Source: Methanomassiliicoccaceae archaeon
GTDB lineage: Archaea > Thermoplasmatota > Thermoplasmata > Methanomassiliicoccales > Methanomethylophilaceae
Assembly: GCA_003557905.1 (NCBI GenBank)
Contig: PWNH01000010.1
Span: 1-62,835 of the forward strand
Reading direction: 5' to 3'
Length of the DNA stretch: 62,835 nucleotides
In this document: positions 1-6,308 of the stretch, one piece after another
Numbering within the stretch: position 1 is the first letter of the stretch
Layout: the number at the start of each line of letters is the position of its first letter
Translations under genes and position numbers: made by a program
Notes under the pieces: generated by a model
The model's database searches: none
What the model was told of the DNA's origin: nothing
The model's input: the letters and a program-made list of their open reading frames with translations, nothing else

Positions 1-2
1 CC

Positions 3-485
3 ATGCGTTGTGAGTTATGCGGAAAGGAGACCGGCGCCTCCAAGCCGATTTTCGTGGAGGGAACGAAGCTGAACGTCTGCCCCGCCTGCACACGCTTCGG
101 CGACAGCTTCCGCGGCGGCTCGTCCACGGCCATCTCCAACAAGTCCGTCATAGAGGAGAGGTTGGAGAAGAGGAAGAGGCGCATGAGCAACAAGGACGTC
201 TTCTCGGGCGACAGTGAGGAACTGGTGCTCGACTACCAGGAGAGGATACGCTCCGCCCGCCGTCGCCTGGATTGGGACCAGGACAGACTGGCGGCGGAGA
301 TCAAGGAGAAGAAGAGCATAATCGCCAAGGTCGAGGCCGGGGACATAACCCCTCCTGAGGCATTGGTCAAGAAGCTGGAGAAGGCCTTGAACATAACATT
401 GAAGGAGAAGGTCCTCTCCGGTAGCGAGATCAAGGGTCAGGGCGGACGCGCCCTCACACTGGGTGACTTCATCAAGAAGGAATGA
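3..485 (+). CDS. Multiprotein bridging factor 1 family transcription factor (zinc ribbon + HTH)
   Basis: N-terminal MRCELCGKE...CPAC zinc ribbon, then a Cro/C1-type HTH (RSARRRLDWDQDRLAAEIKEKKSIIAKVEAGDITPPEALVKKLEKAL). Confidence 0.85.
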   Translation: MRCELCGKETGASKPIFVEGTKLNVCPACTRFGDSFRGGSSTAISNKSVIEERLEKRKRRMSNKDVFSGDSEELVLDYQERIRSARRRLDWDQDRLAAEIKEKKSIIAKVEAGDITPPEALVKKLEKALNITLKEKVLSGSEIKGQGGRALTLGDFIKKE

Positions 486-2791: not shown

Positions 2792-3313
2792 GTGAACGAA
2801 GAGTCTCGAGGGAAAAACGCGCAGGATCCTGTCGAGGAATGTGAAATGGACATGGAGTCATTGTTACAGGAGGCGGAGGCAAAAGCCTTCGAGAACCTGG
2901 ATATGGCCAAGAGGATCCAGGCGGATTACGATAACTATCGCAAAAGGTCGCAGAAGGAGATGGAGGAGTTCCGCAAGTTCGCCACCGAGGGCTTGGTCCT
3001 CGAGCTGCTTGTGATCCTCGATGACCTGGAACGCGCACTTCAGACCGAGGATGCCGTGGGCCCCTTCGCCGACGGTGTCCGCGGCATACATATCAATCTC
3101 AAGAAGCTGTTGGAGTTCAAAGGTCTCAAGGAGATCGCGACCGACGGCGTTTTCGATCCCCGCGTCCACGACTGCCTCATGACCTGTGAGGGTGATGAGG
3201 ACGGTCGGATAGCGGAGGTCTACCAGAAAGGATACTACCTCGGACCGAGGGTTATAAGATGTGCGAAGGTCAAAGTTACCAACGCAACAAAGAAAAATGG
3301 AGAAGGTGAGTGA
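2792..3313 (+). CDS. grpE: Nucleotide exchange factor GrpE
   Basis: GrpE core ([39 protein letters not shown]); GTG start at 2792 with GAGG upstream; immediately upstream of dnaK. Confidence 0.93.
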
Positions 3314-3315
3314 AT

Positions 3316-5160
3316 ATGTCACGTGTAATAGGAATAGATCTCGGAACAAGCAACTCCGCCGCAGCGATAATGGAGGGCGGAAGGCCCAGCATGATACCCA
3401 GCGCCGAAGGCACCAGCGTGGGCGGCAAAGCCTTCCCGTCCTATGTGGCCTTCACCGAGGACGGACAGCTCCTCGTCGGCGAGCCTGCCCGTCGCCAGGC
3501 GGTCACCAACCCCGATGGGACCATCAAGAACATCAAGCGCAAGATGGGGACCGATCACAAGGTCAAGATCCGCGGCAAGGAGTAAACCCCTCAGCAGATA
3601 TCGGCCTTCATCCTGCAGAAGATAAAGGCTGATGCCGAGGCCTACCTCGGTGAGAAGGTGGAGAAGGCGGTCATAACCGTCCCCGCCTACTTCAACGACA
3701 ATCAGAGGCAGGCGACAAAGGATGCCGGGGCCATAGCCGGTCTCGAGGTCATCCGTATAATCAATGAGCCCACCGCCGCCGCCCTGGCCTACGGTCTTGA
3801 CAAAGGCTCCGAAGAACAGAAGATAATGGTCTTCGACTTCGGAGGCGGTACCCTGGATGTCACCGTGATGGAGTTCAGTGACGGTGTGTTCGAGGTTCTC
3901 AGCACCAGTGGTGACACCAACCTCGGCGGCTCCGACATGGATGAGGCACTGGTCAACCACGTCCTATCCAGCTTCAAGAATGAGTCCGGCATAGACCTTT
4001 CGACGGACAACATGGCCCTGTGGAGGGTTCGCGAGGCCTGTGAGAAGGCCAAGATAGAGCTGTCGACAACTCAGGAGACGGAGATCAACCTGCCCTTCAT
4101 AACCGCTGATGCCAGCGGCCCGAAGCATCTGACCCAGAAGATCTCCCGTTCCAAGCTCGAGGACCTCGTCCACCCCATCGTGGAGAAGTGCCGGGTGTCC
4201 ATGTCCACCGCCATCAAGGACTCGGGCCTCAAGTACGAGGACATCAAGAGGATAATCCTGGTGGGCGGTCCCACAAGGATGCCCATCGTGCAGAAGTTCG
4301 TCGAGGGCATCGTCGGCCCCAAGATCCAACGCGGCATCGATCCCATGGAGTGCGTCTCCATGGGCGCTTCGGTCCAAGCGGCGGTCATATCCGGCGAGGT
4401 CAAGGACGTGCTACTCCTCGACGTCACACCCCTCTCCCTTGGTATCGAGACCTTGGGAGGTATCGCCACCAAGCTGATAGAGAGGAACACCACCATCCCC
4501 ACCCGCAAGACCCAGGTGTTCTCCACCGCCGCTGACAACCAGCCCTCGGTGGAGATACACGTCGTTCAGGGGGAGAGGGAGATGGCCGCCGGCAACACAT
4601 CCTTGGGCAGGTTCATGCTCGATGGAATCCCGCCCGCGCCCCGTGGAATCCCGCAGATCGAGGTCACCTTCGACATCGATGCCAACGGCATAATCAACGT
4701 CTCCGCCAAGGACAAGGGGACCGGCAAGGAGCAGAAGATAACCATCAGCACCTCCAACAAGCTGACCCAGGAGGAGATAGACGCCATGGTCCTTCAGGCG
4801 GAGCAGTTCGCCGACGAAGACCGCGCCCGCAAGGAGCGCATCGAGACCATAAACCAAGCTGACACCACCGTCTACACCACCCGCCGTTCCCTCGAGGAGC
4901 TCGGCGACAAGGTGAGCGACGAGGAGCGCAAGACCGTGGAAGCGGCAATCGATGAGCTTGAGAAGGCCAAGGAGGAAGAGGACCTGGGCAAGATCAAGGA
5001 GAAGACCGAGGCGGTCTTCAAGGCCATGGGTCCGATATCGCAACGTATCTACAGCGAGATGGCCCAGGACCAGCAGCAGGCCGGTCCTGCCGGGGGGCAG
5101 ACCTCCGGAGGCGAGGACTTCGTCGATGCGGACTACAAGATAGTCGATGATGAAGAGTAG
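3316..5160 (+). pseudogene. dnaK: Molecular chaperone DnaK interrupted by one in-frame TAA (3583-3585); otherwise full length
   Basis: [21 protein letters not shown]...[46 protein letters not shown]...; both halves are in the same frame (3658-3310=348, divisible by 3). Confidence 0.92.
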
Positions 5161-5165
5161 GTATC

Positions 5166-6308
5166 ATGCCTGAGGACTACTACCAGGTATTGGGGCTTGA
5201 GCGAGAGGCCACCAAGGACGAGATCAAGAAGGCCTATCGCAAACTCGCCCGTCAGTACCACCCTGACGTGACGACCGAGGACAAGACCGTAGCCGAGGAG
5301 AGGTTCAAGACCATATCCGAGGCCTACGAGGTCCTCGTCGACGACGAGAAGCGCAAGGTGTACGACCAGTACGGCCATGCCGGACTGTCGGGCAGCTTCA
5401 GCGGTGGCTCGTTCACCTGGGACGACTTCTCCCACTTCGATGACCTTCGGGACATCTTCGGAGGCATGGGAGGATTCGGCGGTAGCATCTTCGACATGTT
5501 CTTCGGCGGGGGAGGCGGGCAACAACGCCGCTCCCGTGGTCCGCGCCAAGGGGACTCGCTCCGCTATGACATAGAGGTGACCCTGGAGGACGCCTTCAAA
5601 GGTCTCAGCAAGGAGATCGATGTGCCGCACACCGTGCAGTGCAACGACTGCAAAGGCACCGGTGGCAAGGATGGGGATGTGCAGACCTGCGGTGAGTGCG
5701 GAGGTGCCGGACAGGTGCAGTCCATCCGCAACTCCGGCTTCGGCCGTTTCGTTTCCGTCTCCGCCTGCCCCAAATGTCAGGGCGAGGGGCGCACCTACAA
5801 GGAGCGTTGCCCGTCCTGTAACGGTGCCGGCCGCCAGCAGCGCAGTTCCAAGATAACGATAAACATACCCACCGGAGTGGAGGAGGGCACCCGACTCCGC
5901 GTGCCTGGCGCGGGCGATGCCGGTGCCATGGGCGGTCCTCCGGGAGACCTTTTCGTTGTCATTCACGTGAAGCAGCACAAGGTCTTCCGCCGTGAAGGTT
6001 CAAACCTCTGGTTGGACCTGACGACCAGTTACCCCAAACTCGCTTTGGGTGCGGAGTTGGAGGTGCCGACCATACAGGGTGAAAGCGCCATGCTGAAGAT
6101 ACCCTCTGGAACACAGGTCGACACCGTGCTGCGCATGCCTGGACAGGGACTTCCCCGCATGGGTGGAGGACCGCGCGGCGACCAGTTCGTGAGGGTCCGA
6201 ATCCAGGTGCCGAAGAAACTCAGTTCCCAGGAGAAGGACCTGCTACGGAAGTTGGACGGCGAGGAAGGTCACAAGGGCGGCATACTCGACAACATCTTCC
6301 GCAAGTGA
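5166..6308 (+). CDS. dnaJ: Chaperone DnaJ
   Basis: J domain with HPD, Gly/Phe region, four CxxCxGxG zinc motifs (CNDCKGTG, CGECGGAG, CPKCQGEG, CPSCNGAG). Confidence 0.96.
   Translation: MPEDYYQVLGLEREATKDEIKKAYRKLARQYHPDVTTEDKTVAEERFKTISEAYEVLVDDEKRKVYDQYGHAGLSGSFSGGSFTWDDFSHFDDLRDIFGGMGGFGGSIFDMFFGGGGGQQRRSRGPRQGDSLRYDIEVTLEDAFKGLSKEIDVPHTVQCNDCKGTGGKDGDVQTCGECGGAGQVQSIRNSGFGRFVSVSACPKCQGEGRTYKERCPSCNGAGRQQRSSKITINIPTGVEEGTRLRVPGAGDAGAMGGPPGDLFVVIHVKQHKVFRREGSNLWLDLTTSYPKLALGAELEVPTIQGESAMLKIPSGTQVDTVLRMPGQGLPRMGGGPRGDQFVRVRIQVPKKLSSQEKDLLRKLDGEEGHKGGILDNIFRK

Follow-up and report, generated by a model that had tools for sequence, protein, structure and literature searches.

An isolated ochre codon in the dnaK gene of a Methanomassiliicoccales MAG, probably a consensus fault over an intact gene

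The dnaK locus and its relatives

The window, the whole stretch of 62,835 nucleotides that was analysed, belongs to a metagenome-assembled genome (MAG) of the order Methanomassiliicoccales (G000; 1,562,613 bases in 139 contigs, completeness 85.8%, contamination 1.32%). It carries grpE, dnaK and dnaJ in a row (Table 1), and the thermosome gene upstream of dnaK is intact. Translation of dnaK reveals a single internal stop, the TAA at codon 90, and the frame is otherwise open until the TAG at 5158-5160, with no second lesion seen in 3316-5160. The TAA is present in the sequence as given. When the stop is read through (one stop counted), the PF00012 profile spans dnaK positions 1-598 with 744.3 bits, and the portion 3' of the stop scores 790.7 bits with NF001413, the DnaK equivalog model. 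The gene therefore matches DnaK / HSP70 over its full length and departs from the family in the TAA that interrupts its frame. GTG 3658 is the first ATG, GTG or TTG in frame after the stop; a 500-codon open frame begins there, and a start at this codon loses 114 residues.

Table 1. Features of the dnaK locus, and exact overlaps with contigs of congeners, in window coordinates
Feature	Position	Strand	Basis
grpE, intact	2792..3313 (start approximate)	+	
dnaK, full-length frame with one internal stop	3316..5160	+	translation; PF00012 and NF001413 profiles
In-frame TAA, codon 90 of dnaK	3583..3585	+	translation; TAC in the four congeners with the gene
GTG, first in-frame start-like codon 3' of the dnaK stop	3658..3660	+	
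dnaJ, intact	5166..6308	+	
Exact 121-bp match to the first bases of G004 contig C7 (putative assembly-graph fork)	1..121	+	
Exact 121-bp match to the first bases of G003 contig C11 (putative assembly-graph fork)	3239..3359	+	

A preliminary description, made from the sequence before this analysis, had read dnaK as interrupted by one in-frame TAA, with both sides in the same frame over the full length and with grpE and dnaJ intact, and had put the cost of a restart at GTG 3658 at about 115 residues. Translation and the profile alignment across the stop bear this out, and both neighbouring genes have whole frames. That description also called for a search for a second dnaK and a comparison with related genomes, and both were carried out. 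A profile search of G000 (85.8% complete) found one HSP70 gene and no second, and rescue by another dnaK copy was rejected on this ground.

Five congeners were compared, four of which have the gene; the fifth, a 67%-complete genome, gives no match. All four copies read TAC at codon 90 and are free of stops, in keeping with the single base change, TAC to TAA, proposed at the outset. The closest is that of G003 (94% DNA identity over the full gene). The closest named relative is a 'Methanomassiliicoccaceae archaeon' MAG (PWHV01; 89% DnaK protein identity), and the nearest named ones are Methanomassiliicoccales MAGs. Codon 90 is Tyr in every other homologue retrieved except two Clostridium loci, which have Leu and His, so substitution is tolerated at this position; the earlier billing of a usually conserved Tyr holds for nearly all homologues and fails for these two. 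Judging from these homologues, the abnormality at codon 90 is the stop, not the loss of Tyr. A chimera with known neighbours was rejected as the source of the TAA, as G003 and G004 both have TAC.

Selection, mixed lineages and stops across the order

Changes on the G000 branch of dnaK were polarised with G004 as outgroup and G003 as the closest relative. Since the split from G003, the branch has gained 48 synonymous and four other nonsynonymous changes, plus the stop. The four are V85I, D558G, A596T and P597S, of which the last two may have occurred on the other branch instead. Fitting a mutation spectrum to the synonymous changes gives a neutral expectation of 2.45 nonsynonymous changes per synonymous one, and ~117 would be expected had dnaK been dead along the whole branch, versus the 4 observed. 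Had the gene been dead for 8% of the branch, these counts would have P of about 0.04; for 10% or more, P<0.01. The marks of a decayed pseudogene, relaxed selection and further lesions, are not found in dnaK. The 48 synonymous against 4 nonsynonymous changes therefore put the stop at the extreme end of the branch, unless the organism lacks it altogether. On these counts, purifying selection on dnaK lasted virtually to the present, if it is not still at work. C-to-A ranks among the more frequent synonymous changes on both branches, which makes the C to A change at codon 90 uninformative as a signature of oxidative damage.

Past the exact 121-bp copies listed in Table 1, G003 C11 and G004 C7 both diverge from the window, and the fork at 3239-3359 ends 224 bp ahead of the dnaK stop. 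Within G000 itself, contigs C7 and C8 (L199, L200) represent one 3.4-kb locus in two versions that are 91.6% identical and have exactly 121 bp in common at each end; both have a 927-codon frame that, by inspection, is a candidate cobaltochelatase-like gene. We infer that the recurring 121-bp length is a trace of unresolved forks in a de Bruijn graph with k=121. Taken together, the exact overlaps and the C7/C8 bubble indicate joint assembly of several close lineages, at least two of which are mixed in the G000 bin at one locus.

A second private lesion lies in an Lhr-like DEAD/DEAH helicase gene (G000 contig C105:6246-8983, minus strand; L231, L278). It is a 1-bp frameshift near residue 76, where a run of C is one base short, and the full 913-residue frame is found in four congeners (G001, G003, G004 and G005). 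Only these two lesions were seen in the ~583 kb compared, so there is no gross fault in the assembly. De Bruijn assemblers seldom let a random base error into a contig, except at low coverage.

HSP70 was detected in 144 of the 147 genomes of the order, and in 73 of the 74 of good quality, so fixed loss of dnaK is rare. Among the matches listed from the 147 genomes, 115 HSP70 genes score at least 670 bits, and three of these 115 have one internal stop: TAA at codon 90 (G000), TGA at codon 204 (G022) and TAG at codon 222 (G024). Different stop codons at different places look like sporadic faults or private variants, not a shared mechanism. The G022 gene (L091), from another genus of the family, has unusual substitutions upstream of its TGA in a conserved stretch (ASFDDN for AYFNDN). 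In L019, taken to be the G024 dnaK, the TAG occupies a codon that is Lys in a relative, and the genome encodes PylS; the TAG may be an error or a chance pyrrolysine-containing DnaK.

Genetic code and pyrrolysine

The release factor aRF1 is intact in G000. A tRNA search gave 47 RF00005 hits, at 45 of which ARAGORN called tRNAs; the two weakest hits, on L166 (at its contig end) and on L167, have no call. No tRNA with a TTA anticodon is among the 45 calls, a set that is incomplete (Tyr, Trp and a few others are also unseen, and the genome is 85.8% complete). An ochre suppressor tRNA was rejected on the tRNAs found, short of absolute exclusion given the incomplete set. TAA terminates 3 of the 44 window genes examined. 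Over the first 37 kb of the window, compared with G003 and G004, no sense gene besides dnaK has an internal stop. Comparison of ~583 kb of the 1.56-Mb G000 with G001 (164 full-length matches) likewise gave no other clean in-frame TAA in conserved genes; on inspection, the remaining internal-stop flags proved to be antisense frames full of stops, or starts extended too far upstream, and were set aside.

On G000 contig C95, pylS is followed by radical-SAM (PylB-like), PylC-like and PylD genes. These stand in a row with a RACo-like (RamA) gene at C95:40565-46119 (L215:565-6119), where G+C is lower (0.50). No PylS above the cut-off was found in the congeners G001 (97% complete), G003, G004 and G005, and the presence of the cassette in G000 may reflect gain, loss or bin mixing. 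A simple pattern search found nothing resembling a tRNA-Pyl adjoining pylS. Pyrrolysine uses UAG, on which ground the preliminary description had set it aside, and tRNA-Pyl is an amber suppressor (PMC4153887); despite the pyl cassette, pyrrolysine is rejected at dnaK codon 90, which is TAA, not TAG.

Interpretation and comparison with known systems

So, is dnaK broken in this archaeon? Probably not: we favour an intact dnaK, masked in the consensus by an error or, the MAG being of mixed lineage, by a minor strain variant. The gene of the living population would be intact and working, and the TAA would be a lone one-base fault in the MAG consensus. The fault may go back to a sequencing or assembly mistake where local coverage was low or, alternatively, to a minor strain variant picked up where close lineages share the assembly graph. 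Most reads from the organism would then lack the TAA. Together with the products of the neighbouring grpE and dnaJ, DnaK would act as the usual ATP-driven Hsp70, with no readthrough. In favour of this reading stand the intact congeneric copies, selection up to the branch tip, the rarity of fixed loss in the order, the mixed lineages, the second private lesion in the helicase gene, the isolated stops of G022 and G024, and the many assembly errors among internal-stop pseudogenes in public assemblies (PMC11017572). Against a consensus fault count the scarcity of lesions, with random base errors by assemblers being rare, and the absence of the TAA from every relative compared, so that no known lineage supplied it by mixing.

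A real and very recent nonsense mutation is possible, at clearly lower probability. The sampled strain would then carry a dnaK null allele, either transient and deleterious or a first step of loss, with the thermosome still at hand for folding. A single substitution of this kind is plausible, given how common C-to-A is on both branches, and the thermosome gene is intact. Archaea can live without DnaK, since it is missing from hyperthermophilic archaea and nearly all Methanococcales (PMC3564930). However, dnaK is near-universal in the order, grpE, dnaJ and the rest of dnaK bear no lesion, and the allele would need to have arisen in roughly the last 8% of the branch. The long open frame from GTG 3658 might suggest a split gene whose shortened DnaK functions, but this is scarcely credible: the 114 missing residues include the N-terminal DLGTSNS, in this family the phosphate-binding segment required for ATP binding, and such a start occurs in none of the full-length relatives aligned. 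UAA readthrough or ochre suppression, yielding full-length DnaK, would suit the selection that kept both sides of the stop and the sole HSP70 gene of this 85.8%-complete genome. It is nevertheless very improbable: no TTA-anticodon tRNA was found among the calls, aRF1 is intact, TAA ends window genes, no other clean in-frame TAA occurs in the genes compared, the stop is conserved in no relative compared, and tRNA-Pyl suppresses amber (PMC4153887). That a pyrrolysine-encoding archaeon has programmed UAA readthrough, or tolerates it, and can thereby carry an ochre stop in its sole dnaK, we regard as improbable in the extreme. The preliminary ranking, with error or strain polymorphism ahead of a very recent nonsense mutation and readthrough last, is thus borne out by the congeneric TAC, by selection up to the branch tip, by the lack of a second HSP70 in G000 and by the tRNA and in-frame TAA searches.

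At face value, the stop would suggest that an archaeon has either lost a near-universal chaperone or recodes ochre. The evidence favours instead an ordinary one-base error or private variant, and no new way to read the genetic code. The lesson is that single stops in MAG genes need checking against reads.

The gene order is that of the Methanomassiliicoccales grpE-dnaK-dnaJ cluster (NF001413, PF00012), and the DnaK of 614 residues has 89-99% protein identity to congeners; dnaK of the order differs in lacking the stop at residue 90. As in the pyrrolysine decoding described for Methanomassiliicoccales (PMC4153887), the G000 bin holds pylS and PylB-like, PylC-like and PylD genes, but that system decodes TAG, whereas the dnaK stop is TAA. 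Many internal-stop pseudogenes in public assemblies are errors tied to coverage and assembler (Cooley and Wright 2024, PMC11017572). That study, whose scope did not extend to MAGs, proved the cause by reassembly, whereas the dnaK described here is known from its consensus sequence. The likeness is close: like those spurious pseudogenes, it combines a single internal stop with an otherwise selected gene, a draft assembly and intact near relatives.
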